From: a virus
Length of the DNA: 42,690 nt
IMG/VR virus record: IMGVR_UViG_3300042519_001001
Coordinates: 1 to 42,690 of that record
Reading direction: 5' to 3' (one strand)
The notes under the pieces are model-generated. The model saw nothing but the letters and a program-made list of their open reading frames with translations. It searched no databases and was not told the origin of the DNA. The translations under genes were made by a program, and so were the position numbers. The stretch's first letter is position 1. Each line of letters begins with the position of its first letter. Below are positions 10,229 to 42,690 of the stretch, piece by piece.

Positions 10229-10589
10229 CTCGTCTGCTGGTCAAGCGTTTGAGCCAATAGCCTACCGCTAAAATCTGCGACCAGTTTGCCGTGGATTTCA
10301 CCCTGTTTGCAAGCGACGAAATGACGATAATGTTTCCACGGACATACCCCTTGGATGGGATTATCCTATCTAATGTCGGTGACGTGGGTCGTGGTCGCTT
10401 GTTCTTCCCGTGTGCAAGCGTAATGCCAAGGACGGGACAACGCTTCGGGATTACGATGTCCTCCGGCGTTATCGCAAACTTGAGGTTCTTCTGTCTGGCT
10501 CGCTGTTTTGCCAGAGCGTAAAGCATGACGTTCGGAAAGGCCTTTCGGTAAGCCATCATCCGCGTCCGCTTTAGCTCGAGCCGGTTCAC
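10218..10589 (-). CDS. HNH/endonuclease VII-like phage protein
   Basis: The 123-residue basic protein has a CPVLG segment (C51), then SPTLDRIIPSKGY (D74-R75) and RGNIIVISSLANRVKS (N86, N95). The order C-P-x-L-G, LDRI-x-x-x-KGY, GN-x-x-x-IS-x-x-AN is typical of a small HNH/His-Me-finger-like family often found in phages, although the usual second pair of zinc cysteines is not obvious. The GTG at 10589 overlaps the stop of the giant gene as GTGA; ATGs at 10559 and 10556 are alternative starts. A free-standing homing endonuclease or a DNA-processing role are both possible. Activity is inferred. Confidence 0.65.
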   Translation of the reverse strand: MNRLELKRTRMMAYRKAFPNVMLYALAKQRARQKNLKFAITPEDIVIPKRCPVLGITLAHGKNKRPRPTSPTLDRIIPSKGYVRGNIIVISSLANRVKSTANWSQILAVGYWLKRLTSRRVRQ

Positions 10590-13500
10590 TTCAAGAGCTC
10601 GTCGATGATGTTGTCGTCTTCCTCGTCGTTTCGTTTCTGCGGCTTGGCTGGCTTACCAGCAAGTCCCTTGACGACATACTCTCGGGTGGCCGGGTGGCTG
10701 GTGGCCTGGATGCCAATGGCTCCCATGCCTCCCATGATTTTACCCGGACCAAGGGCAAAGGCGGCGTTGGCCGCAGGCTGGACCGCGAGGTCATAGCCAA
10801 GTCGGGCAAACCGGCGTTCAGCCGTATTGGTGTTCTTGGAGTTCCTCGGACCGAGGTAGTCTACGCCGCCCTTGATGCCTTCGGAGAAGGTTCCAAGGAC
10901 AGGGCCAAGCATGACGGTCGCCGGGTCCTTGTCGTAGCGTGCACTAAGTGCGGCGTTAGCCATGAAGTCGAAGCGTCCGAACAAGTTGGAGCGGGACATG
11001 GCTCGGGCAATCTTCATGCCTTCGCTCATCTTCGCTTCGTTGACTCGTGCCGGGTCCTTGAAGGCTTCGTCGCGACCTTCGCCAATCAGGTACTGCACGC
11101 CGGTAAGGACAGGCAGCATCATGGCAGGCCCGAGCATGTGCATGCGGTCCATGGCGGTCAGTTCGTTCTTCGACACGGCCGTCTTTGCCAGACGGAGTGC
11201 ACGCTTGGTGACGTTCTCGTGGAAGGCGTAGAGGTACGACTGAAGGTTGAAGATGACGGAACCAAGGGGGTGGTTGGCCCAGCGAGGACGGGTGCCAGCG
11301 TTCGGGTTCATGATGACCTGTTCGGCAAAGCGAGCCAGGGCGTCACGATACATCTGAGGGCCCTTGCCGTTCTGTCTGCTGATTAGGGCAAGCTTTCCAG
11401 CCTCGTCGAGCTTCTCGAGTTGCTTGACGAACTTGGCAAACGAAGCGTGGTCAGTAATGCCAAGTTCGTTGAGGTAGCGTGCAGACGAAGCCTTCATGCG
11501 GCCGTTGTCGTTGATGTCTTCGGCAAGTCGTCGAAGGAACACGGTACCGGCACGGACGGAAGCGATGCGGGTGCCTTCCGTCCATTGGTGAAGGCCGGTC
11601 TTGCGGAAGAACTGGTCGGTCAGGTACTTGCTGCCGGAGCGGGTCTGGTCGGTCCAATAGCGGCTGTCGACAGACGAGCTTACGGCCTGTCCAGACAGTT
11701 CAGACACGACGACTCCGACGTCTTGTGCGAGCTTGTGGTAGTAGTCAGGGTCTTCAGCCAGGAGCTTTCGCTTCATGTAGACCAGCGAATTGCCCATGGC
11801 AGACAGACTATCCACGACGTTGCCGGTCCGAAGGCCGGTAACCAAGGGCTCACCAATCGAAGACAGGGTGGCACGAGGCAGGAAGTGGATGGCCGAATAG
11901 GCGTTCAGGAAGTTGATGATGCCTTGGCCCTTGTAGTCCTTGAGTTGGTTGGTGCCCAACTGATTGGCGACAAGGGAGTTCATCTCCTGCAAGGCGGTGC
12001 GGTTGCCTTCGCTAATCAGGGCTTTCTGAAGTCCTTGATAGACTTCAAACTCGGCACCGAAGCGTCGGGCAATTTCGGCGTTCTTGACCGCACGCCCGAT
12101 GTACGAGTTGGTGGCGTCAAGGATGTTCCGGTTGTAATACTTCTCCATGAACCCTTCGGCTACCTTGTTGAACTTGCGGGAGCGGGTATGCTTCGGCTCT
12201 CCGTTCAGGTTCGACGAGTCGAACACGAACTTCTGGTCAAAACTAAAGCCGCTGTCTCCACGAAGGATGGCGTCGTACCATTCCGAAGCCGCTTCGCGTG
12301 CTTCGATTGGGTCCATGCCAGTGGTTTCGTAGGCCTTCTGAGCCGCGTTTAGGAAGCCATAACGGTCCTTTAGCACCATCTCGTTGTCGAGCATGCGAGG
12401 GACGTAGGTTTCTCCGGCGTTGTCGAGCTTGATGCCAGCACGGATTTGATACTGGTGCATCTTTCGGTAGAGTCCTCGCAGCGAGGTGACAGCCTGAGCC
12501 AACTTAGGGTCAGACGGAAGACCCGGCTGAACCATGGCACGGCCAAGGTCTTCGAGGAACTGCTTTTGTCCGTCGACATCCTTGAGTTTGAGTTCGGACT
12601 CGAACGGACGAAGTGCGTCTGCGAGTTCGTTCTTGAACTGAAGCTGGCTCCGGCTGACTGCGGTATGGAAGCCGATTTTAGCGGCCTTGTCCGTGCGACC
12701 AGCAAGGGTGCTGTTCAGTAGTTCGCTGACTTCGCGAATGACTTTAGACTGGCGTCTGTCTGCGAGCACATCCAACTGAGCCTGCGAGGAACGAAGGAAC
12801 GAAGCAGTCGCGAAATCGACGCCATGCTGTGTGAAGGTTTCCTTGTCCGTGATGTTTTCCTTGGCACGCTTCAGGCCTTCGATGCCCTTCTTGACCACGT
12901 TGATGGAGGCCTGGGCTTCCTCACGGAGGAAGCTCTTGTTGGAGGACATGGAGTATTCGTTCCCGAGTCCCTTGACGTCGTTGTTTCCGAGGCGTGGTTC
13001 TCCGAGCGTGTCAACGTCTTCCGGCTTGTATTCAAATCCGTACCGTTCCTTGAAGGCCCGCTGAACGTCCGCCGGGATTTCGGACGAGTTACGGACGTCC
13101 GTGTCTCCGCCGAGTTCGACGAAGCCCTGGTAGAGTTCGTCGCGTCGCTCGAACGAGCCGGGTGCGAACTCACCGGAAGAACGGCGTTCTTCTCGGGTGA
13201 TAATGCCAAGGGCCTCAAGCGTATCTTTCTCAAGACCCATCGAGGTGGCCGCCTCTCGGGCGATTTCGGCTTCGAGTTCGGGGTCTACGACCTCCTCCCT
13301 CGGGGGAAGTTTTTCATCCATTCCAGGCTCCTCGCGGAGGCGGTCCATGAGTTCCTGCTCTGACTTGCCCCGAGTCTCCAGCTTGCGGTCACGCTCAGAC
13401 TGGCGGTAGTTGTAGTTTTCAGGGTTGGTCGTGCTCTCGCGAAAATCCATCTCTTGGATGACCTCGTCGTAGGTCGGCTCACGGCCGAGTTCAGCCTTTA

Positions 13501-16500
13501 GGTCGGCTTGGGCACGCTGAAAGTCAGGACTGTTTCCGGCCTTGTTATCAAAGTCTTCGTGCTTCGTGCGATGTTCATCGAGCAGGTCATTCATTTCGGT
13601 GACCTGTTCTCGGGTCATGCTTCTTCCTCTGTCCGTTCGGTTGTTGAGTTCCTCAATGTCCGCCTCGGCGTCCTTGATGCCACGGGTAATCGTCTGCTTT
13701 CCGATGCCGAACTTGTCGAAACCCTTCGGATGGATTTCAGACATGGATGCGGCTTCGGCGTCAGCCTGGCTCATGCCACGACGCATGAAGCGTTCCGTGC
13801 GGAGTCGGTGAAGGTGGTCGTAGTATTCGTTGTCAGGCTTGGCGAAGCTGGAGGTATCCCGGGACGAGATTTCGAGGATGGACTCCATGGCATGGTCGAG
13901 GGCGGTGTTGCCCTCGATGCCCATGATGTCCTTGACGGCCTGCTTGAAACGCGACCATGCGTTCGTCTCGCCCATCTTAATGGACTTGAGGTAAGCCTTG
14001 AAATCTGGGTTGGTTGCCGCGTGAGAGATAAACTCGTTTAGGTCGGCAATCGGATACTGTCCGGCACGGGAAAGTTTGTCCATGTCTGAACCAGGTCCGA
14101 AGACATTGTCCCTGGCACTGACGTCCTCGTTCCGAAGTCTGTCCAGCTTGTCCATGCTGAACGGCTTGCTGTTATCCTTCTGCTCAGACAGCACCTTCAG
14201 GTATGTCTGAACGAGCTTCCTGACAGCCTTGTCTGAACCGGGGTTGTTGACGTAGGCACGAAGACGGTCGTAATAGCGTGTTCCAGACGAACCCATCACG
14301 TCGGAGTCAGGTCCGGTCACGATGCCGATAGTGCCGAAGATTGCACGGTTGACTTTGTCAGCGGTGGCAGAGTGCACGATTTCGTGCATCACGATTTCAA
14401 GTGCACGGGCAGGGTCGGACAGCTGTTCGCGGTTGAACTTGATGCCGCCGTACTTGGTGCCTCCCTGGATGCTCGGACCTTCAGACCTCCAGCCAGGCAT
14501 GTAGCCTGACGCCTGTCTGCTATCCTTGCCCCAAGCACCGACGACAACCTCAAGGCTCTTTTTGTCCTGGTTTTTCAGCAGGTATTCGGCAAGTTTCCCG
14601 AGTTCCGGGTCAATGCCCTGCATGTCCTTGCTTTTGGAGTTCTTGACGATGCGTTCAAGGATGTCTTTGACTTTGGATTGGCCCTTCAGCGTCATATTGA
14701 CGACATCTCTGGCACCCGCAGACAGTCCGTAGTAGCGTGCTTCTTCTTCCCAGAACTGTTCAGACGCGTTCCTTGGGCCTTCGGTCCGGCTTACAACTTC
14801 CATTCCCCTGCCTCGTTTGCCTCGGGCTTCGTGGGTGAACTGCTGGTGTCCGCCGATTTGCTTCTCGTTTTCGCGTCGGAAGTCGGTGGTTTCGATGCGG
14901 TCACGGTTTGCGACCTCAGCCTCAAACTCGGAAAGGCGACCACGCTGCAGGTCAACCTCGGAACGAACGGCCGCGATTTCAGACGCAGACGCACCGGCAG
15001 CCTGCATTTCAGACACGCGTGCGTCGTTGGCTTCGACCTCCATGGACAGACGGTCCACTTCGGCTTCCAACTCAGAACGGGTCATGTTCTCAGGAACGAT
15101 GTCCGTGGTGCGACCTTCTTCGCGACGCATCTCAGGCATGGCCTTTCGACGCTCGTTGATAGCCTTTTCGACTTCACGCCAGTAGGGGCGCCCCTGCTCC
15201 TTGAGGGCGTCCCGGGCCTGCATTAGTTCGTCGATGGTCAGACGGTCGAAGCGACCGCGAGCCCAATTAAGGGCCTGGACGGGGTCACGCTTAACACGGG
15301 GGCCCGGGTTGTCTGGATTGTCGAACGTCTGCTTATCGCGTTCACGTTGGACGATACGACTGCGGTCAAGGCGTTCCCAGTTACCCTGCTGTCGGCCACG
15401 GGCGTTGAGTTCGACCTTGGCGGCACGCAGACGCTCCTCGTTGACCTTGATTTCGGTGGCAAGTTGAGCCGCCTCCGGAGAGCGATTGCGGCCGTCACGC
15501 TTGTTGAGTTCAGACAGACGCTCGCGGTCTGAGCGGATTTGGTCCGGCAGGCTGCGGACCATGTCGTTCAACTGGGACTTAGGAGTGGTTTCGGGGACAA
15601 AGCCGCCAAGGGCGGTATTACGCTCGCCTTCGTTGCCGTATTGGCGGTGGCGGTTCTGCATCTCCTCGGTGACCGAGCGGAGAAGGTCAGGGTCTGCGGA
15701 GCCCTTGTTCTTCTCAAGTCGCGTCTGGAGGTCTACGAGTTCGTCGTAGGTAAGGCGAGAAGGGTCACCGGTTTCGGTGAGGGCTTCAGGGCCGGTACGT
15801 TCCTGTCGTCGCTCCCATACCTGCGGCTTGGCAAGCGGGTCACGGACACGGTCACGGCCGGTGGTGCCACCCTGCGGGGCTGGCTGGGATGCCTGATTTT
15901 TGCGGGCTTCACGCTCGTCAAACTTTCGGGCAGCCATGTCAAGGAACTGCTGGTCGATACCCTGGATGTTCCGGAGTTCGGCAAGTCCACGCTCCTTGGA
16001 TACGGAGGTTCGGTCCACGAGTTTCTCAATGGAACGCTGGATAGCCTCGGTGGCTTCTCCGGTAGAAACCTTGCCGTCAGACACATCACGCATCAGACGA
16101 CGCAGACCCATGAGTTCAACTTCGGCCCTCGGGGGTAGCAGACGGGCCTCGTTTCCAGACATCTTCATGGAGTCCATCTTCGCATGATGACGCTCCATGA
16201 TTTCGCGGTTGTAGGCGGGCGTACCCGGGCGAAGGTGAGCAGGCATAGGCTGCTCCCAACGCGGGACGTTGCTGGTTTCAGCCGGTGCCTCTGCTGGCTT
16301 GGCGTCAAAAGTGCTCAGACCGGCCTGCCTGTCCTGCTGTCTGAGAAGGTCCTGAAGGTCATCTCCAAGCATGTCGAGCTCAGCTCGGATGCGATTAGGG
16401 TTACCTTCACCACGCTCAAGCTTGCCCTTAGCTTCTTCGATACGTTGGTAGTGGTCGGCAATCTGGTTCTCAAGCGAGTCGCCCTGAAGGGAGCGATTGC

Positions 16501-19500
16501 CAAGCATGGAATAACCGTAAGCACCCTTGGAGTAGCGGTAAGTAGTGTCGTTTTCGAGACGCGTAGATGCGTCATAGTGGGCCGCGAAGATGGCATCTCG
16601 CTCCGCTTCACTAATGCGACCGGCCTGGAAGTCCTCACCGGCCTTCAGGACGTCGTCAAAGGTCTTGGCTTCAGCCCGTTCGTTCTCGGCTCGACGCAGC
16701 ACGTCTGAGTCGAACTTCTTACGCCATTCAAGGTATGGCATTTCGCCGATACCCTTGACGTTGATGGTGATGTTTTCTGGACCAACAACGGCAGCAAGAG
16801 CCTTGGACGAATTGCTGAGGTCAGACACATCCTCCAGGCGATACTTGATGCGGGTCATTCCCTGTGCTTCCGCCTCGTTGTTGATGCGGTGCACGAACTC
16901 AGACACCAGGCCCTTGAGCATGCCCTGGTTTCGCATGCCAGGATGGGTGTCGAAACGCTCGATGTAGACTTCTGGCTCTCCGTTCTTTGTGGTCTGGATT
17001 TGCCCGATGATTTCCGTAGCGACGCGACGGCCAGCCTCACCTCGGAATAGGTTGGACATTCCGGTGTAATCCGGACGTCCGGTCTGGGTCGGCGGGACAG
17101 GGATGTCCTTGTCAGAACGAAGCAGCAGATGGACCGTGTTCATCCGGGTGGGCACGCCAGGGTTGTTGCCCCTGACGGCACCGTTGAGAGACTCGTTCTC
17201 GCTCAGGACCTCAAGAGTGAGATTGTCACCGCGAGAGGAGGTCTGTCTGAGAGTGTCTGAAAGTCCCCGAGAAAGAGGTGCTTGAACGGCGGTCTGACCA
17301 CCACCAAGGCGTGCGTCGGGATTGTCGAGTTCCCGGAAACGGCCTACATCCCTGGCGGCCTGATTTGTCTCGGCTGCTGGAATAGCTGCCCGAGATTGAG
17401 AGCTTCCTGGGAGTCTGGGGCTTGAACGCCCATACCCTGCGGTAAGGGGGACCTGCTCGGCATTTGACTGGGGAAGGACGGGGCGGACAGGGGTAGAGAG
17501 CTGCCTGTCTCCGGTGAGGGCGAGAGGGGTTGCGACGACCCGGCTTCCGGTCGGGTCGAGGGGTTGCCCTGTCTGAGGATGGAATTGAGTTCCTCGCTTC
17601 CCTCCGTGACCTGAGTAGAGTTTCGTCTGCTCGTTCCGTTCCCGGGTGGCTGCATCAATAGCTCGACGTAGTCTTGGGCTGATGCCTGCGTCGGTTCCCA
17701 GGCCAAGAACCTGGCCGTACCGGCCCCCGAAGGTGCCTGGCTTGAACTCGGAGTCCCAGCCTTGTTGTTGTTCGTATTTGCCTTCATAAGCGATTAGTCG
17801 GACGGTAGCGTTGTGGCCGCTGTCGCGGCCGATGGTCCTTTCCCAGGCCAGGCGAGACGCCTCTGCCAGGGCCATCTTATTGGGTACCTTGCCACCAAAG
17901 TCAAACATTCGGATGCCGCCCTCGTGGCTCATCGGTCCTACGGAGCCAACGGCGTCAATGCCGTAGTCTGCCTTCAGTATCTTTTCGACCTCCTTGGAGA
18001 AGGCGATGACTTCAGGCCTGTTAAGCTTGCGACCGGCGTCAACCTGGATGGCCGTGCCCATCTCATTCGGACCCTTGTAGCCAGGATACTGCCCATTAAC
18101 GTCCGGCTGGAGGTCGTGTCTGATGACAGACCATCCCACTCCTTTTTGGCCGTGAGCTGCAGACAGCGAGGTCGCGAACTGTCCGACTCGACGCATCGCG
18201 TCTGTCATGTCAGAGCCTGGCTGAAGCGTGAAACGGAAGGCAGAAGCACCGTTGTTTTGCAGAACGCCGCCTTCGCTCCAGAAGCCTGTATCGACAGACT
18301 CCGTAGGCTTTGGCAGACCAAGTTCGGCAGCGGCGGTATCAATCAAATTACGGCCTGCCGGGCCGCTGAACAGGGATGAATGGACTTCAGGCAGACGGGC
18401 GGTAGGAACATCCATGGTCCCATCGGCGTTACGCTGGGACTCGATGTTCGTCACGCCCTCGGCGGGGAGATTAGGACGGGCAGCGGTAGCGTCGGGAGCC
18501 ATGGTCGCCGTACCGCGAGGGCCGGTCAGGGCGTCAGCAGGCAGGGTTCCAGGCCGTGCCATCGGCTGGTTCGTGTCTGGGTTGATGCCGTTATTGATGA
18601 GTTCCTGGCGACGGCGTGCTTCAGCCGCGATGTCGACAGGGCTCGTGCCCCTCTGGCCGCCCTTTGCGGGGTCAATGCGACGACCACCTGCACGACCACC
18701 GGAGGTAGACGCAAGGAGTTCGTCAGGATGGTAGTAATGACCGGTTTCCTGGAAAAGCTTGAGGCGTTCCTCCTGCATACGCTGCAGGTAGTCGCCAAGC
18801 TCAATGTCGTCTTTGGCTTTCTGTTCGGCCGTAAAGCCTTGCTTTTCAAGTTCAGCAAGAACGCGAGCACGCTCGGCTTCGTCTGCGGAAGAACGCTGGA
18901 TGCGTTCAGCCGCTTCTTTTGCGGTGAGCTCCTCGCCTTCTTTCATCAACTTGGCGGCGGCGGGGCTAAGTTCAACCGGCTTTCCTTCAGGCTTGGCAAG
19001 GTTACGGAGGTCAAGTCGTGAGCCGGAGGTCAAATCGCCTTCTTGCGGCTCATAGACCTTCTCTCCGCTTGCCGTGGTGATTGTCTTCTGCGGAAGGCCC
19101 TGAACTCCTGCGTAATTCCTGCCATAAACAATGGGACTAATCGGAACACCACCGGTGCCGTACGTCAGAGCCCTAAACCCGTCGCCAAAGGTGGCACGCA
19201 TGTCAGCCTCCCGGACAACGTCCGGTGTCTGAGCAAAGTTCCTATCAATCGCAGACATGTTGCTGTCGACGACTTGCTGCAGACCGGCATCTACGCCAAC
19301 CCTGTGCATGCCGCCATGGGTTAGCTGGGGGATGTTGCCAAGGGTGTGCTTGCCAATCTGAGCGGTGAACAGACCTGACGCAATAAGGTCAGGAAGCGAT
19401 GAAGTGAGGTTCGCGTAGTCCCCTTGACGAACCTGCTCAACAACGTTCTTTCCGGCATCAATAGTCGCACCGCCCATGTGTCCGAAGAACATGCCTTGTG

Positions 19501-20815
19501 CTGCCGTGTCTGCGGCAAGCCATTTCCTGGCCGTATTGACGGCAGCAGCCGTCTGCGGAGAGGCCGCACCTGTCTGCATCATGGCTTGCGGGATTGCAGC
19601 CTTGGCTGCCTGCAGTTTCATTCCGACGCCCTGAACCGCACGTCCGGTTCCGCTGTGCATGAACTCAGGGATAGAGTAGATTACGTTGGCAACACCCGTG
19701 CCAACGTTGTAGGCACCCTTGAGTCCAGTCGCGAGGCCAGAGTCGCTTGGTGCGATGTATTGAGGCTGGAAAAGATGCTGCTGAGGGGTGGCGTTTCCCT
19801 GTCCGACGAGCGGGAGCCCATTTCCTGGGAGTCGCTGCTCGAGGCCAATCACGCCTGCGGTACGATTTCCGATGGTGTCATACTTTCCCTCTCCACCCGG
19901 AATGGGAAGGTTATGGATGATGTCCTTGATGTTGCCATACGGGTTCTGCATGGCGAACATTCCGCCAATCAGTCCGTCCCTTTTGAACGCTTCCTCGGTA
20001 ACGGTGTCACTACGCATCCACGGCTTGTATTCAAGCGGTGCACGCAATTCTCCAGGCTGGTGGTATCCAACAGTTTCACCCTTAGTATTGGTGATAGGAG
20101 TGAAGTTCGGGTAAAAAACGTCATCCCACGAGCCACCATGCGGAAGTGCTCCGGTGCTGTGGAAAGAACGAAGCTGGTGCTCAGACCATCCGGGAGGAGA
20201 CGGAAGCGTCTTGTTTTCAATCGTTCCCGACTTTTCTCCGAACAGGAGTGCAGCACCATCGTAAATCTTGTCCTTAACCGCACCAGCGGCCATCCGGACT
20301 TCCCCTGCGGCCTTACCAAGCAAACCGGGCTCAGGCATCGGCCCCCTTAGTTCCGTGTTCGCGGGACCGGTGGGGCGGATTTGGGACAGACGATTGGCTG
20401 CAACATTTGGGTCAGCCTTCGGGGTAACGATAGACTGAGGTTCAGCCTGACCTTCTACCTGTGCGTCAAGATGGTATGTGTATTCCTGACCCTTCGGGTC
20501 TGAGAAAGAGAAGCTCTTAACAGACGGGAACCCATCTTCGCCGATGTCCACATAGACATCCGTGATTACATTAAGTCCACCACCTGGGCTCTGAAAGCGT
20601 CCGCCGCTGCGAAGTCCGTCAGGGAAGGCGGAGTTTTTGAAGTTTGAAAGATGCTGGTTAGCTACGGCACGAGTCTCGTCATAAGACGGGTTCCAGGTGC
20701 CAGAGCGAACGCCCTTTGCTCCTTCTTGGCTGCTCGGGTCGCCGACAATAGTAACAGGTGTCAGACCGCGTTGCTCGAGTGCTTTGCGTAGGTCAAAGTT
20801 GTCCTTCTTAGCCAT
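10586..20815 (-). CDS. Giant polyvalent internal virion/ejection protein, 3409 aa
   Basis: A single uninterrupted frame takes up about a quarter of the window. Visible parts are: a Gly/Ala-rich hydrophobic region near residues 365-490; a GNAT-like segment with MRNQG at 1294-1298 inside a beta-alpha unit; long charged helical stretches (about 1400-2000); a zincin domain with HEIVH at 2144-2148 and a downstream NEFISHA with E2261 as probable third ligand; and a helical C-terminus with a conserved NHPLGSVIFNLQSYLYAF segment near 3180 and a hydrophobic stretch near 3225-3245. Multi-domain giants of this kind are the polyvalent proteins of podoviruses, thought to be carried in the capsid and ejected with DNA to aid entry and counter host defences. 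The downstream HNH-like gene overlaps its stop. Individual domain functions are inferred. Confidence 0.85.
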   Translation of the reverse strand: MAKKDNFDLRKALEQRGLTPVTIVGDPSSQEGAKGVRSGTWNPSYDETRAVANQHLSNFKNSAFPDGLRSGGRFQSPGGGLNVITDVYVDIGEDGFPSVKSFSFSDPKGQEYTYHLDAQVEGQAEPQSIVTPKADPNVAANRLSQIRPTGPANTELRGPMPEPGLLGKAAGEVRMAAGAVKDKIYDGAALLFGEKSGTIENKTLPSPPGWSEHQLRSFHSTGALPHGGSWDDVFYPNFTPITNTKGETVGYHQPGELRAPLEYKPWMRSDTVTEEAFKRDGLIGGMFAMQNPYGNIKDIIHNLPIPGGEGKYDTIGNRTAGVIGLEQRLPGNGLPLVGQGNATPQQHLFQPQYIAPSDSGLATGLKGAYNVGTGVANVIYSIPEFMHSGTGRAVQGVGMKLQAAKAAIPQAMMQTGAASPQTAAAVNTARKWLAADTAAQGMFFGHMGGATIDAGKNVVEQVRQGDYANLTSSLPDLIASGLFTAQIGKHTLGNIPQLTHGGMHRVGVDAGLQQVVDSNMSAIDRNFAQTPDVVREADMRATFGDGFRALTYGTGGVPISPIVYGRNYAGVQGLPQKTITTASGEKVYEPQEGDLTSGSRLDLRNLAKPEGKPVELSPAAAKLMKEGEELTAKEAAERIQRSSADEAERARVLAELEKQGFTAEQKAKDDIELGDYLQRMQEERLKLFQETGHYYHPDELLASTSGGRAGGRRIDPAKGGQRGTSPVDIAAEARRRQELINNGINPDTNQPMARPGTLPADALTGPRGTATMAPDATAARPNLPAEGVTNIESQRNADGTMDVPTARLPEVHSSLFSGPAGRNLIDTAAAELGLPKPTESVDTGFWSEGGVLQNNGASAFRFTLQPGSDMTDAMRRVGQFATSLSAAHGQKGVGWSVIRHDLQPDVNGQYPGYKGPNEMGTAIQVDAGRKLNRPEVIAFSKEVEKILKADYGIDAVGSVGPMSHEGGIRMFDFGGKVPNKMALAEASRLAWERTIGRDSGHNATVRLIAYEGKYEQQQGWDSEFKPGTFGGRYGQVLGLGTDAGISPRLRRAIDAATRERNEQTKLYSGHGGKRGTQFHPQTGQPLDPTGSRVVATPLALTGDRQLSTPVRPVLPQSNAEQVPLTAGYGRSSPRLPGSSQSRAAIPAAETNQAARDVGRFRELDNPDARLGGGQTAVQAPLSRGLSDTLRQTSSRGDNLTLEVLSENESLNGAVRGNNPGVPTRMNTVHLLLRSDKDIPVPPTQTGRPDYTGMSNLFRGEAGRRVATEIIGQIQTTKNGEPEVYIERFDTHPGMRNQGMLKGLVSEFVHRINNEAEAQGMTRIKYRLEDVSDLSNSSKALAAVVGPENITINVKGIGEMPYLEWRKKFDSDVLRRAENERAEAKTFDDVLKAGEDFQAGRISEAERDAIFAAHYDASTRLENDTTYRYSKGAYGYSMLGNRSLQGDSLENQIADHYQRIEEAKGKLERGEGNPNRIRAELDMLGDDLQDLLRQQDRQAGLSTFDAKPAEAPAETSNVPRWEQPMPAHLRPGTPAYNREIMERHHAKMDSMKMSGNEARLLPPRAEVELMGLRRLMRDVSDGKVSTGEATEAIQRSIEKLVDRTSVSKERGLAELRNIQGIDQQFLDMAARKFDEREARKNQASQPAPQGGTTGRDRVRDPLAKPQVWERRQERTGPEALTETGDPSRLTYDELVDLQTRLEKNKGSADPDLLRSVTEEMQNRHRQYGNEGERNTALGGFVPETTPKSQLNDMVRSLPDQIRSDRERLSELNKRDGRNRSPEAAQLATEIKVNEERLRAAKVELNARGRQQGNWERLDRSRIVQRERDKQTFDNPDNPGPRVKRDPVQALNWARGRFDRLTIDELMQARDALKEQGRPYWREVEKAINERRKAMPEMRREEGRTTDIVPENMTRSELEAEVDRLSMEVEANDARVSEMQAAGASASEIAAVRSEVDLQRGRLSEFEAEVANRDRIETTDFRRENEKQIGGHQQFTHEARGKRGRGMEVVSRTEGPRNASEQFWEEEARYYGLSAGARDVVNMTLKGQSKVKDILERIVKNSKSKDMQGIDPELGKLAEYLLKNQDKKSLEVVVGAWGKDSRQASGYMPGWRSEGPSIQGGTKYGGIKFNREQLSDPARALEIVMHEIVHSATADKVNRAIFGTIGIVTGPDSDVMGSSGTRYYDRLRAYVNNPGSDKAVRKLVQTYLKVLSEQKDNSKPFSMDKLDRLRNEDVSARDNVFGPGSDMDKLSRAGQYPIADLNEFISHAATNPDFKAYLKSIKMGETNAWSRFKQAVKDIMGIEGNTALDHAMESILEISSRDTSSFAKPDNEYYDHLHRLRTERFMRRGMSQADAEAASMSEIHPKGFDKFGIGKQTITRGIKDAEADIEELNNRTDRGRSMTREQVTEMNDLLDEHRTKHEDFDNKAGNSPDFQRAQADLKAELGREPTYDEVIQEMDFRESTTNPENYNYRQSERDRKLETRGKSEQELMDRLREEPGMDEKLPPREEVVDPELEAEIAREAATSMGLEKDTLEALGIITREERRSSGEFAPGSFERRDELYQGFVELGGDTDVRNSSEIPADVQRAFKERYGFEYKPEDVDTLGEPRLGNNDVKGLGNEYSMSSNKSFLREEAQASINVVKKGIEGLKRAKENITDKETFTQHGVDFATASFLRSSQAQLDVLADRRQSKVIREVSELLNSTLAGRTDKAAKIGFHTAVSRSQLQFKNELADALRPFESELKLKDVDGQKQFLEDLGRAMVQPGLPSDPKLAQAVTSLRGLYRKMHQYQIRAGIKLDNAGETYVPRMLDNEMVLKDRYGFLNAAQKAYETTGMDPIEAREAASEWYDAILRGDSGFSFDQKFVFDSSNLNGEPKHTRSRKFNKVAEGFMEKYYNRNILDATNSYIGRAVKNAEIARRFGAEFEVYQGLQKALISEGNRTALQEMNSLVANQLGTNQLKDYKGQGIINFLNAYSAIHFLPRATLSSIGEPLVTGLRTGNVVDSLSAMGNSLVYMKRKLLAEDPDYYHKLAQDVGVVVSELSGQAVSSSVDSRYWTDQTRSGSKYLTDQFFRKTGLHQWTEGTRIASVRAGTVFLRRLAEDINDNGRMKASSARYLNELGITDHASFAKFVKQLEKLDEAGKLALISRQNGKGPQMYRDALARFAEQVIMNPNAGTRPRWANHPLGSVIFNLQSYLYAFHENVTKRALRLAKTAVSKNELTAMDRMHMLGPAMMLPVLTGVQYLIGEGRDEAFKDPARVNEAKMSEGMKIARAMSRSNLFGRFDFMANAALSARYDKDPATVMLGPVLGTFSEGIKGGVDYLGPRNSKNTNTAERRFARLGYDLAVQPAANAAFALGPGKIMGGMGAIGIQATSHPATREYVVKGLAGKPAKPQKRNDEEDDNIIDELLK

Positions 20816-39118: not shown

Positions 39119-39148
39119 GCCTGCTCGCCGGACGAACGGCGGGCAGGC
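39119..39148 (+). other. Strong RNA hairpin between the AAA+ and DUF7192 genes
   Basis: A 12-pair GC-rich stem (39119-39130 with 39137-39148, one G-U) closes a 6-base loop GACGAA. It is in the 84-base gap after the AAA+ stop. It is not followed by a T-tract, so it may slow or protect the transcript 3' end or act as a processing stem. It is not a hammerhead: no CUGANGA or GAAA core pair is present. Confidence 0.6.
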
Positions 39149-39187
39149 CCCTGCACCCTCTCACCCACCCAAACACACACAACACAC

Positions 39188-40129
39188 ATGGCCCTCATCG
39201 ACCCAACCACGCTCCCTCGCCACAAGGAAAAGCGTTTCTACCAAACCCCCGGCGTCTGTCTGAAGTCCGACTTCAGCAACGCAGACCGCAGTAAGAACTA
39301 TGTTCTACTCGAGGCAGACAGCATCGACGCCTACCTCAAGTGGCAGGCCGAGTGCGAGCCGTCTGTCAGCGGCTGGCGTGAGTCCCGGTCTGCGTCTGCC
39401 AAGCAGTCGTGGGACCTCAAGGCCGGATGGGACGGCTATCAGACGCTCCTGTCTGACGGCTGGCCCAAAGGCGTGGCCAAACTCAAGACCGCCGTTGCCG
39501 CCCTGCCCTCGTCCATCGGCTTCGGACGCATCCCGGACTCGGATGTATGCGGTGACTCGCTCAACATCCCGGCGTTCGTGGCTGGTGACCCCTGCCATTG
39601 GGACTGCGACCCGGACGAGGACGCAAGCCTCGGACAGACCAAGGTCATCCGTCTGATTGTCCCGGTCGGTGCCCTCGCCGGATACGATGCGGACTACCTC
39701 TACAACCGAGGTGCGGCGGTCGTGGCCTGCATCCGTAGCATCGAGGCCGCTGGCTACCAATGCGAGGTCTGGGCCGAGTCTGCGGCCAAGTCTGCCCCCG
39801 AGGCCATCTGCCAGCGAGTGAAGGTGAAGCACGCCGGAGCCTCGCTCGACCTCAACAACCTCGCTGTCTGGCTGGCTCACCCGGCGGCCTTCCGCCGAGG
39901 CTTCTTCGCCGGGCGTGAGTGCCTCTGGTCTGTGCAGACGCCGCATGGTAGCGTGGACGGTCTGCTGGGCGGCTACGGTGGCACCTGCTACGGTCCCACG
40001 GAAGGGCTCGAGGCCGGGAGCATCTACCTGCCCCTCGCCGCCCACGGACGGCACAGCACGCCGCAGGCCAGCCTCGAGACGCTGTCTGCCGTGTTCACCA
40101 AGGCCGGGTTCCTGCTCAAGTTCAACTGA
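39188..40129 (+). CDS. DUF7192-type phage protein, 313 aa
   Basis: The 313-residue protein follows the plan of a phage family grouped as DUF7192: an N-terminal WDLKAGWDGYQTLLSDGWPKG segment, a DVCGDSLNIPAFVAGDP segment, a sheet with KVIRLIVPVGAL, a helix with RGAAVVACIRSIEAAGY, a strand CEVWAE, and a closing WLAHPAAFRRGFF. This alternation of strands and helices suggests a Rossmann/vWA-like alpha/beta fold, but I see no MIDAS (DxSxS) motif. Its biochemical role is unknown. It follows a CobS-like ATPase, which may be its partner, as AAA+ ATPases of that class usually work with a vWA-like protein. Confidence 0.68.
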   Translation: MALIDPTTLPRHKEKRFYQTPGVCLKSDFSNADRSKNYVLLEADSIDAYLKWQAECEPSVSGWRESRSASAKQSWDLKAGWDGYQTLLSDGWPKGVAKLKTAVAALPSSIGFGRIPDSDVCGDSLNIPAFVAGDPCHWDCDPDEDASLGQTKVIRLIVPVGALAGYDADYLYNRGAAVVACIRSIEAAGYQCEVWAESAAKSAPEAICQRVKVKHAGASLDLNNLAVWLAHPAAFRRGFFAGRECLWSVQTPHGSVDGLLGGYGGTCYGPTEGLEAGSIYLPLAAHGRHSTPQASLETLSAVFTKAGFLLKFN

Positions 40130-40141
40130 GCAGACAGACAA

Positions 40142-40191
40142 GGACGAAACGCCGTGAGGCGTCCGTGGGTTAGGCCCACGCTGACGAGTCC
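40142..40191 (+). ncRNA. Type II hammerhead ribozyme
   Basis: All hammerhead parts are present in order. Stem II 5' strand GGAC 40142-40145; GAAA 40146-40149; stem III of five pairs (40149-40153 with 40158-40162) closed by a GUGA tetraloop; cleavage triplet GUC ending at 40163; stem I of six pairs (40164-40169 with 40175-40180) with a five-base loop; CUGACGA core 40181-40187; stem II 3' strand GUCC 40188-40191. Stem II is the open one, so it is type II. All 15 pairs are Watson-Crick, including the A15.1-U16.1 pair. Predicted cleavage is between 40163 and 40164. It lies 12 bases after the stop of the DUF7192 gene and 45 bases before the next ATG. Confidence 0.9.
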
Positions 40192-40236
40192 AGACGCAAG
40201 CACTCAGACACTCTCACCCAAACCCAACAGACACAC

Positions 40237-40488
40237 ATGGACTACAAAACCCGCCAACTCATCCACATCCTCGTCCGTGAACTCGACGACGCCCACCTCC
40301 GGGTCCCGGTCGCTCTCGCTCACTCGGAAATCGCCCACAAGGACCTCAAGCGTCTGCAGACGGAAGGCGTGACCGGGCCGGAACTCGCCTCGGCAGACGC
40401 TCGCTACAAGGCGTCGCTCGACTACTACGCCTCCTGCATCACCTGCCTTGACGACACCCGCAAGGCCCTCGCCGAAGCCATCGGCTAA
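40237..40488 (+). CDS. Small helical protein, 83 aa
   Basis: The 83-residue protein starts MDYKTRQLIHILVRELDD and is predicted helical with charged and Leu-rich faces; two cysteines lie close together (ASCITCL near residues 67-73). No family is recognised. It is the first gene downstream of the hammerhead ribozyme, so cleavage there would give it a 5'-hydroxyl transcript end. Its leader (AACCCAACAGACACAC) is A/C-rich and without an SD. Confidence 0.6.
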   Translation: MDYKTRQLIHILVRELDDAHLRVPVALAHSEIAHKDLKRLQTEGVTGPELASADARYKASLDYYASCITCLDDTRKALAEAIG

Positions 40489-40525
40489 TCAGACAGACAA
40501 CCTTTCATCCCAACCCAGACACACC

Positions 40526-40774
40526 ATGAAGCACACCAAGAAACTCATCCGTTCCCTGCTCGACGAAATCGAGGTCGCTAAGGACAAGGTCAGCGACTGC
40601 GAGCGTGAATACATCCGGGCCTCGTCTGCCCACAACCGTCTGCTCAACCAGACGGACGACGGCGAGCGTCTGGCCAAGACCCACGCCCGGTGCAACGACG
40701 CCGTCAAACGCTGGACCGAGGCGAGCGACTTGCTCGACGACCTCCAGACCAAACTCGACACCCTCCTTTCCTAA
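40526..40774 (+). CDS. Small coiled-coil protein, 82 aa
   Basis: The 82-residue protein from ATG 40526 begins MKHTKKLIRSLLDEIEVAKD and consists almost entirely of predicted amphipathic helices rich in Asp, Glu, Lys and Leu, ending in LDDLQTKLDTLLS. A coiled-coil hairpin is likely. It resembles its neighbours (40237 and 40833 genes) in size and helical nature, but I see no sequence match between them. Function unknown. Confidence 0.6.
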   Translation: MKHTKKLIRSLLDEIEVAKDKVSDCEREYIRASSAHNRLLNQTDDGERLAKTHARCNDAVKRWTEASDLLDDLQTKLDTLLS

Positions 40775-40779
40775 CACGC

Positions 40780-40807
40780 TTGACAACCTACAAACTGTCG
40801 GCATAGT
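40780..40807 (+). promoter_or_regulatory. Possible internal promoter before the 119-aa gene
   Basis: TTGACA (40780-40785), 16-base spacer, CATAGT (40802-40807, four of six -10 matches). The near-palindrome ACA-AAC-TGT (40790-40798) lies in the spacer and is shared with the sites at 37373 and 41666. The expected leader before ATG 40833 is about 19 bases and A/C-rich. Confidence 0.4.
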
Positions 40808-40832
40808 GCCCAATCTCCAACCCACCCAGAAC

Positions 40833-41192
40833 ATGACCCAGCCCAATGAAAACAAGCCCACGGACAACCTGTGGGAGTCCACCAACAAGGCGACTCACGA
40901 CCGCCTCGCCAACCGAGTCCGTGTCGGCTTGAACGCCGCCGTTGACTCGCTCGAAAACCTCGAGGCTCTCCGGGTCAAACTCGACTCGGCCATCTCGCAG
41001 GCTCAAGCCGCAAGGGACACGCTCAAGGACGCAGACTTCTACCTGTCTGTCTACGACTACGAGCAGGTTGACCCTCGCTGTGCCGACGCCCGTGGTTTTC
41101 TCCTGTCTGCCTACCTCGGTCTGTCTGTCCTCGGCTCGCTCAAATCCAAGGTGAGCATCCCGGACGACGCCGCACACCGCCCGAACGCCTAA
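40833..41192 (+). CDS. Helical protein, 119 aa
   Basis: The 119-residue protein from ATG 40833 (MTQPNENK) has two long predicted helices (RVRVGLNAAVDSLENLEALRV and LDSAISQAQAARDTLKDADF), then a C-terminal part with LSAYLGLSVLGSLKSKV. No family is recognised. Longer upstream readings of this frame cross the preceding gene and are not supported. A putative promoter with an ACA-N3-TGT repeat precedes it, so it may be expressed separately from the upstream half of the operon. Confidence 0.6.
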   Translation: MTQPNENKPTDNLWESTNKATHDRLANRVRVGLNAAVDSLENLEALRVKLDSAISQAQAARDTLKDADFYLSVYDYEQVDPRCADARGFLLSAYLGLSVLGSLKSKVSIPDDAAHRPNA

Positions 41193-41235
41193 CCCACCCA
41201 CTCACCCCCAGACACACCTCCACACACATACGAAC

Positions 41236-41664
41236 ATGAGCACCAACGAACCCACCCCCACCGCCACCCTCATCCGGGAGCACTTGCACCAGCACCTGCT
41301 CTCGTCTGAGTTCATCCCGCTGTTCAACACCGGCCGCATCGTCATCACGAACGGCGTGAAGGACCGCTTCAACGAGCAGACGCTCGACACCGTGTCTGAA
41401 CTGCTGACCGCCCACTCGTGTTGCGATTGGGGCAACGCCATCCCGGCTGGCGATTGGCAGTCGAACGACGACCCGGGCAACATCGAACGCTTCGAGCGTC
41501 TGCCGTCTGCGTATGGCAAGGAGTTCGAGCCCTGTGCCGTCCGCAACCCGGGGCGTGTGCTCGCCTCGTGGCGTCTGCCCGACTCGTCCGAGTCCGTGTG
41601 GGTCACGACCGAGTCCACGGACGAGGGCATCGTCACGACCGTCCTCCTGCCCAGCGAATACTAA
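41236..41664 (+). CDS. Phage/plasmid conserved protein with DWG and TTVLLPSEY motifs, 142 aa
   Basis: The 142-residue protein has the layout of a small family found on plasmids and phages (often labelled plasmid-related protein). The elements are GRIVITNGV, a HSCCDWG segment, DWQSND, a (V/I)LASWR strand, VWVTTE and a final TTVLLPSEY. The family members carry H-x-x-GDWG, N, R-x-L-S-x-Y, W-x-x-TE-x-D and TT-x-LLP-x-EY in the same order, which gives good confidence in the match. Its biochemical function is not established. The leader contains ATACGAAC directly before ATGA, repeated before the 181-aa gene. Confidence 0.75.
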   Translation: MSTNEPTPTATLIREHLHQHLLSSEFIPLFNTGRIVITNGVKDRFNEQTLDTVSELLTAHSCCDWGNAIPAGDWQSNDDPGNIERFERLPSAYGKEFEPCAVRNPGRVLASWRLPDSSESVWVTTESTDEGIVTTVLLPSEY

Positions 41665-41665
41665 C

Positions 41666-41707
41666 CGACAAACTGTCGCTTGACAAACCAACCAACCCAG
41701 CAATACT
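41666..41707 (+). promoter_or_regulatory. Possible operator and promoter before the 108-aa gene
   Basis: A perfect inverted repeat CGACA-AAC-TGTCG (41666-41678) immediately precedes TTGACA (41680-41685); 16 bases later AATACT (41702-41707) matches the -10 in four of six positions. Transcription would start close to the ATG at 41716, so the promoter may serve a different start or the -10 may be misplaced. Confidence 0.38.
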
Positions 41708-41715
41708 TCCCACCG

Positions 41716-42042
41716 ATGAGCAAAACCTCCAACAAACTCAAGGCCCTCAACGCCGCACTCAAAACGGTGCTCGAGGCTTACATCGAACTGCGAGACAAGG
41801 AAAAGGACCCGGCCCCCTTCAACCGGGTGCTGTCCGTCGACGACCCTTTCGCCGACCTCGCCAACAAGTGCGTCAAGGCGTTCACGGACGCCGGGCACCC
41901 GGTCACCATCCCGCTTCTGGCGAGCCTGTGCCGGACCGCCTACACGGACAGCAAGCGTAAGGACAAGCACGCCTTCCCCCTCGAACGCTACGACGCCGAA
42001 ACCCTCATCGACCTGTCTGTCTGGTTCGCCTCGAACCGATAA
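41716..42042 (+). CDS. Hypothetical protein, 108 aa
   Basis: The 108-residue protein from ATG 41716 (MSKTSNKLKALNAAL) has a helical N-terminus and a mixed C-terminus with ADLANKCVKAFTDAGHPVTIPLLASLC and a final IDLSVWFASNR. No family is recognised. It follows the DWG-family gene after a 51-base gap carrying the operator-like repeat. Confidence 0.6.
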   Translation: MSKTSNKLKALNAALKTVLEAYIELRDKEKDPAPFNRVLSVDDPFADLANKCVKAFTDAGHPVTIPLLASLCRTAYTDSKRKDKHAFPLERYDAETLIDLSVWFASNR

Positions 42043-42084
42043 CTTTTCACCCACCCAGAATACCCACCCAGAAATAATACGAAC

Positions 42085-42630
42085 ATGACGAACAACAACG
42101 ACAAGAACAGCAACGGCACCCCGCCCGAGCACGCCATCGCCACGAGCCCGCAGGACCTGCTCAACTTCCTCGGGTTCATCAGCAAGGGCACGCTCATCGG
42201 GGCCGTGACCGCCGCCGCCATCAAGGACGACCTGTCCAAGTTGGTGAAGGCCCTCGACGCCGGACAGACGGCAGACGCCAAGGTCCACGCAGACCAAATC
42301 CGTCAGGGCCTCAACCTGCTCGGCAAGGCTGTCTGCACCCTCGGTCAGACCATCGTCCGTCACGACGAATACATCACCCGCAAGTGCGAGGAGCGTGGTA
42401 TCCCGGTGACGAGCGTGTCTGAGAACCTCATCGACGACTTCAAGTTGTCTGGCGAGGATTTCCTCAAGTCCTTCTTCGAGGAGGCCAAGGGCAACGGCTT
42501 CGTGGAGGAGCCGAACGGTCCGTCCAAGAAGAAGGGCAAGTCCGCAGACAAGCCCGGCTTCGGGGACAAGAACTTCGACCCGCACGACCGCTTGGACGGC
42601 TTCGACCCGGACAAGCATCGGTTCAACTAA
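42085..42630 (+). CDS. Hypothetical protein, 181 aa
   Basis: The 181-residue protein has a polar Asn/Lys start (MTNNNDKNSNG), a helical middle (about 22-110, with FLGFISKGTLIGAVTAAAIKDDLSK and GLNLLGKAVCTLGQTIV), then a Lys/Gly/Asp-rich flexible tail (KKKGKSADKPGFGDKNFDPHDRLDGF). No family is recognised. The second hammerhead ribozyme starts with the first base after its TAA. The leader ATACGAAC before its ATGA is the same as that of the 142-aa gene. Confidence 0.65.
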   Translation: MTNNNDKNSNGTPPEHAIATSPQDLLNFLGFISKGTLIGAVTAAAIKDDLSKLVKALDAGQTADAKVHADQIRQGLNLLGKAVCTLGQTIVRHDEYITRKCEERGIPVTSVSENLIDDFKLSGEDFLKSFFEEAKGNGFVEEPNGPSKKKGKSADKPGFGDKNFDPHDRLDGFDPDKHRFN

Positions 42631-42690
42631 GGCCGAAACATCAGACGGAGTCATGGCCGTCTGGTGTCCGTGGAGTTATGCTCCCGCTGA
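42631..42690 (+). ncRNA. Type II hammerhead ribozyme, truncated by the window edge
   Basis: Stem II 5' strand GGCC 42631-42634 and GAAA 42635-42638 are followed by an 11-pair stem III (42638-42648 with 42657-42667, one G-U) with an eight-base loop. GUC then ends at 42668, the predicted cleavage point. Stem I pairs 42669-42675 with 42681-42686, with U42671 bulged and a five-base loop. The final CTGA (42687-42690) is the start of the CUGANGA core. The next bases should be NGA then GGCC. The 5' strand begins directly after the stop codon of the 181-aa gene. Confidence 0.8.

Follow-up and report, generated by a model that had tools for sequence, protein, structure and literature searches.

On the evidence of its sequence, the element at positions 40142 to 40191 of the window, i.e., the whole 42,690-nt stretch of viral DNA analyzed here (IMG/VR record IMGVR_UViG_3300042519_001001), is a real type II hammerhead ribozyme (HHR1), predicted to cleave itself and one of two in the record. 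Related elements occur in many phages at a strikingly regular position, and we suggest that, by cleaving themselves, they probably divide polycistronic phage RNA at points that follow one gene's stop codon and precede the start codon of the next gene, a model in which the cleavage, the chemistry of the resulting ends, and the effect on the mRNA are predicted parts. The relevant features of the window are as follows:

39188 to 40129, + strand: upstream gene, DUF7192 (Pfam PF23822, E 5e-20)
40142 to 40191, + strand: HHR1, complete type II hammerhead ribozyme (from sequence, Rfam, model R2, and fold)
40142 to 40145 with 40188 to 40191, + strand: HHR1 stem II, GGAC/GTCC
40146 to 40148, 40163, and 40181 to 40187, + strand: HHR1 core, comprising GAA, C17, and CUGACGA (CTGACGA in DNA), respectively
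40149 to 40153 with 40158 to 40162, + strand: HHR1 stem III with GUGA loop (A-CGCC GTGA GGCG-T, 40149 to 40162)
40163/40164, + strand: predicted HHR1 self-cleavage site, after C17 by hammerhead numbering
40164 to 40169 with 40175 to 40180, + strand: HHR1 stem I with loop UUAGG (CGTGGG TTAGG CCCACG, 40164 to 40180)
40237 to 40488, + strand: first open reading frame (ORF) downstream of HHR1, 83 aa, no family; the relative L002 has another gene at this place
40526 to 40774, + strand: ORF of 82 aa inside the block bracketed by the hammerheads, no family
40780 to 40807: promoter-like TTGACA-N16-CATAGT upstream of the 119-aa ORF, conserved in both relatives
40833 to 41192, + strand: ORF of 119 aa, no family
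41236 to 41664, + strand: ORF of 142 aa, no family
41680 to 41707: promoter-like TTGACA-N16-AATACT upstream of the 108-aa ORF, conserved in both relatives
41716 to 42042, + strand: ORF of 108 aa, no family
42085 to 42630, + strand: ORF of 181 aa, closing the block, with its TAA directly before HHR2
42631 to 42690, + strand: HHR2, second type II hammerhead, ended by the record end inside CUGA(CGA) (from R2; complete in relatives)

Several lines of evidence support HHR1 as a complete type II hammerhead, as had been proposed in an earlier reading of the bare sequence (the sequence-only reading). First, the bases, when read again, agreed with that proposal in sequence and coordinates, including the core, the 15 base pairs (4 + 5 + 6), the GUGA loop, and an open stem II, stems I and III being closed. 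The core CUGANGA ... GAAA ... UH lies at a three-way junction, helices I, II, and III all close it, the A15.1-U16.1 pair adjoins the predicted cleavage site, and the order of the elements (GAAA, stem III hairpin, UH, stem I hairpin, CUGANGA) is that of type II. Second, RNAfold returned exactly this three-way junction as both the minimum free energy and the centroid structure of the 50-mer (−21.5 kcal/mol, z −2.0); the junction was retained in an 83-nt stretch around HHR1, with an energy that is ordinary for such GC-rich DNA (z −0.9). Third, an independent covariance model, R2, which was built from 38 aligned compact phage and prophage hammerheads with the window, its relatives, and two poorly paired strings left out, scored HHR1 at 62.3 bits (E 2.1e-16). 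Finally, HHR1 is conserved in two relatives, and its stems covary across the family. Its placement between the DUF7192 gene, the stop codon of which lies 12 nt before HHR1, and the next ORF on the + strand was likewise as proposed.

The Rfam model of the type II hammerhead (RF02276), which the sequence-only reading had named as a check, gave a divided answer: all 66 model positions aligned to HHR1 (76 nt supplied) with an E value of 0.0018, but the score of 24.2 bits lies below the cut-off of 37 bits, and the search of the region at the gathering cut-off accordingly returned no match. The RAGATH-1 hammerhead model (RF03152) gave no real match to HHR1 (13 bits, E 3.8, in a different register). 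HHR1 falls short of the Rfam cut-off because the compact, pseudoknot-less subclass to which it belongs is poorly covered by Rfam: in six array regions, the cut-off recovers 2 of 41 copies found with our descriptor. As a test of compact copies, the gathering threshold is, therefore, uninformative; it is a detection threshold and not a property of the RNA. Because most compact copies are missed in this way, phage annotation under-reports the subclass. Variants can also escape both models, since phage PaP3, which is said to carry a hammerhead (PMC3088659), matched neither R2 nor RF02276.

The compact and long forms differ in loop I. Where stem I is long, the mean longest match between loop I and the tail 3' of stem II is 4.24, compared to 2.78 for mismatched partners; this complementarity is the published pseudoknot. 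In the compact class, which includes the window, there is no signal of a pseudoknot between loop I and tail (longest match of 2.01 compared to 2.02 for mismatched partners). Here, loop I follows the pattern U N A N G, and 92% of copies have an A immediately before stem II; the strongest statistical coupling links this base to position 1 of loop I. By analogy to known hammerhead structures, we infer that compact copies may form one A-U contact that joins loop I to the end of stem II.

To assess covariation, we used 41 hammerheads, namely the window and 40 sequences that were picked by length and pattern, not by pairing. Standard pairs fill 98.3% of the pair cells, compared to 64.5% with shuffled partners and 28 to 38% when the structure is slid, and 12 of the 16 pairs have changes on both sides; the search pattern imposed five pairs (three in stem II and two in stem III), leaving the other eleven free. 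Stems I and III both formed in 326 of 365 pattern strings, compared to 45 of 7300 shuffles. In 3.07 Mb of hit-enriched DNA, the descriptor matched 453 sites, compared to a single site in the reversed sequence. Together with the R2 score, this result sustains the earlier assertion that a chance origin of HHR1 is very unlikely.

The window holds two copies rather than one; HHR2 is absent from the sequence-only reading. R2 matches HHR2 at 42629 to 42690 with 26.6 bits (E 1.9e-5), the match being broken at the 3' end; the predicted cut is at 42668/42669 on the + strand. Stem II of HHR2 starts immediately 3' of the TAA stop codon at 42628 to 42630. Two relatives, IMG/VR 3300032234_000434 and 3300024348_000072, contain both copies in complete form (HHR2 at L033:16521-16587 and L044:7879-7945); like the window, they are metagenomic records. 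HHR1 and HHR2 differ in stem III. Pfam searches with the six small ORFs between them gave no matches. The alignment of the window to one relative ends at 40264, just within the first ORF after HHR1, and both relatives have a 223-aa gene that is missing from the window. From these comparisons, HHR1 and HHR2 appear to frame a block of variable gene content in which the ribozymes are kept while the genes change. Outside the two near relatives, no homologue of the flanking genes was accompanied by the block. The best terminase matches of the window are from a Microcystis and a Rhizobium phage (54 and 49% identity), and the named phages nearest by terminase, Mae-Yong1326-1 and RHph_N65, gave no match to the hammerhead model. 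The gene leaders in 39148 to 42085 are C/A rich with repeated ACCCA and lack a Shine-Dalgarno sequence, which suggests an unusual initiation signal of the host. Elsewhere in the window, the pentamer CAGAC/GTCTG is overrepresented (387 occurrences compared to 273 expected, both strands), and an ORF of 3409 aa on the − strand at 10586 to 20815 possibly encodes a giant virion protein.

Beyond the window, three scans of IMG/VR and one of bacterial genomes identified at least 452 distinct type II hammerheads in at least 267 loci, pattern-based counts that are lower bounds and not a census. At least 74 loci have two or more type II copies, and none of these 74 mixes strands; arrays are a common setting in the wider data, in addition to many single-copy loci. 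Up to 13 copies share a single 20-kb stretch (in L036 and L040). In L036, a copy lies between nearly every gene, and stem II mostly starts ≤4 bases from the stop codon; this phage array from IMG/VR (13 copies, L036:2593-10537) includes SNF2-type helicase and surface lipoprotein-like (Ltp) genes. Two contigs, named Phycicoccus jejuensis (L294) and Streptomyces iakyrus (L295), share three hammerheads that are identical in score and spacing, which reflects either a shared phage or cross-contamination of samples.

Placement was measured by a mechanical stop-codon test with shifted controls, which supersedes rough ORF calls that had placed many copies within ORFs. The stop codon of a long ORF lies at −3 to +1 nt of stem II in 59% of 368 dereplicated copies (1.3% of control positions), such a stop codon lies −12 to +3 nt from the start of the ribozyme in 77% of dereplicated type II copies (4% of controls), and a Shine-Dalgarno 5-mer follows ≤30 nt downstream in 51% of the 368 (8% of controls). 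Thus, the type II element fills the intergenic space in the order stop codon, ribozyme, ribosome site, and start codon. Dedicated scans identified type I arrays of up to 7 copies and type III groups of up to 4, each of them almost entirely of one type. Type I copies, too, tend toward stop codons; phage contigs with arrays of 5 to 7 type I hammerheads include L342, L359, and L385. Type III hammerheads of phage contigs (L437 to L513) lie ∼32 nt after the stop codon and do not adjoin it. The existence of type I and type III groups led us to reject, as a general rule, the idea that type II is favored in arrays because it alone leaves hairpin ends on both products.

Hammerheads of this type also occur in cultured phages. 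A blastn search with the window ribozyme gave matches in Streptomyces phages. Phage R4 (L533, NC_019414; recorded host S. coelicolor A3(2)) has 8 copies by R2 and 9 by RF02276, the 9 being above the Rfam cut-off, and phage Spernnie has 9 by each model, those by RF02276 again above the cut-off; R2 identified 6 copies in phiRKBJ001, 6 in Wentworth, and 3 in Quantum. In the stretches of these phage records that we viewed, no ribozyme is annotated. The R4 and Spernnie arrays resemble the window in that hammerheads lie between successive small genes on one strand; they differ in having a longer stem I and Rfam scores above the cut-off. In R4, the gap from ribozyme to nearest annotated stop codon is 2 to 39 nt. 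For some R4 genes (e.g., gp79 at 48913), the annotated start lies within the CTGATGA of the ribozyme core; either such start codons are misassigned or the overlap is real.

Hammerheads cut after H17 to leave a 5'-hydroxyl and a 2',3'-cyclic phosphate. We suggest that HHR1 and HHR2 would fold as RNA polymerase passes and cut after C17 (40163 and 42668). The stem III hairpin, bearing a 2',3'-cyclic phosphate, would then terminate the upstream RNA, the stem I hairpin, bearing a 5'-hydroxyl, would lead the downstream RNA, and the two cuts would free an RNA of ∼2.5 kb with six small genes. The likely purpose would be to make separately decaying, hairpin-ended mRNA units out of one transcript. The core, the fold, the R2 score, the covariation, the retained copies, the stop-codon layout, the one-strand arrays, and a precedent from 2011 support such splitting. 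Four observations weigh against it: the block contains conserved promoter-like sites, and its genes need not rely on one long transcript; proximity to stop codons could result from genome compaction alone; HHR1, at its distance from the stop codon, is not an extreme case; and the leaders in the window lack a Shine-Dalgarno sequence. On balance, we consider splitting of the polycistronic RNA the probable function. That hammerhead arrays serve as intergenic punctuation, making single-gene mRNAs during transcription with cuts rendered translation sensitive by their placement at stop codons, is a tentative proposal that we regard as rather doubtful.

Other explanations fare less well. The terminating ribosome could cover stem II and the GAAA core and, in that way, delay the cut until the upstream gene is cleared of ribosomes, a scheme that, if true, would couple translation to mRNA splitting. 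The clustering of type II copies around stop codons (77% compared to 4%) and the occurrence of type I copies at stop codons too are as this scheme would have it; however, compact genomes predict the identical position, type III copies are ∼32 nt away, and HHR1 is at the edge of the ribosome footprint, making such gating unlikely. Alternatively, both hammerheads could cut, after which reverse ligation or an RNA ligase could join the ends of the 2.5-kb piece to give a circular RNA of the retrozyme or viroid-like kind. While two same-strand ribozymes do bracket the block in the window and two relatives, arrays of up to 13 copies with single genes between them and the many single-copy loci are unlike one circle, HHR1 and HHR2 differ in stem III, and circular or spliced products of tandem hammerheads were sought and none found (PMC3088659); we, therefore, view a circular product as very unlikely. 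It is highly improbable that the elements are relics or selfish, duplicating sequences of no benefit to the phage: duplication inside a genome does predict arrays nearly uniform in type, as found, but the core is invariant, the stems covary freely, placement is exact, and the elements were retained while genes around them were replaced, all of which points to a maintained function. A chance resemblance, i.e., a pair of hairpins without ribozyme identity, would fit the score below the Rfam cut-off and is practically negligible given the independent R2 match, the reversed-sequence control (1 compared to 453), and an Rfam shortfall that is general for the compact subclass.

Splitting of the polycistronic RNA as the preferred reading has a clear antecedent. 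A 2011 study reported that type II hammerheads of phages and prophages, tandem sets among them, cleave both in vitro and in E. coli, and it put forward the idea that such RNA processing yields gene-sized mRNAs (PMC3088659). Type II hammerheads in phages, and clusters of them around genes, have been on record since that year, and the window adds another example. As late as 2017, what hammerheads do in prokaryotes was described as an open question (PMC6155905), and in 2023 there was still no known reason why they cluster (PMC10085705). The strict position between stop and start codon, the one-strand arrays, and the approximately nine copies in phage R4 make the purpose of these hammerheads experimentally testable.

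Compared to known systems, the window shares with the type II hammerhead described by Perreault et al. in 2011 (RF02276; PMC3088659) the core, the circular permutation, the location in phage and prophage operons, and the flanking of genes by several copies. It differs in that the RF02276 consensus has a pseudoknot, which is present in the majority but not all of the published examples, while the window has a compact 17-nt stem I with a UNANG loop and no pseudoknot signal between loop I and the 3' tail. The tandem hammerheads of Agrobacterium tumefaciens, Azorhizobium caulinodans, and Clostridium scindens similarly flank genes in phage-derived DNA; in these three, cutting was demonstrated (PMC3088659), whereas activity is predicted in the window. 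Retrozymes and viroid-like circular RNAs also have two codirectional hammerheads around one segment; in contrast to retrozymes, the segment in the window is a block of protein genes, and no retroelement features were seen. The arrays described here, with up to 13 copies, go far above the triple arrangement of 2011 (PMC3088659). What the present analysis adds to these systems is a compact form that is missed by Rfam and a rule of position that is unusually clear and extends over many phages.
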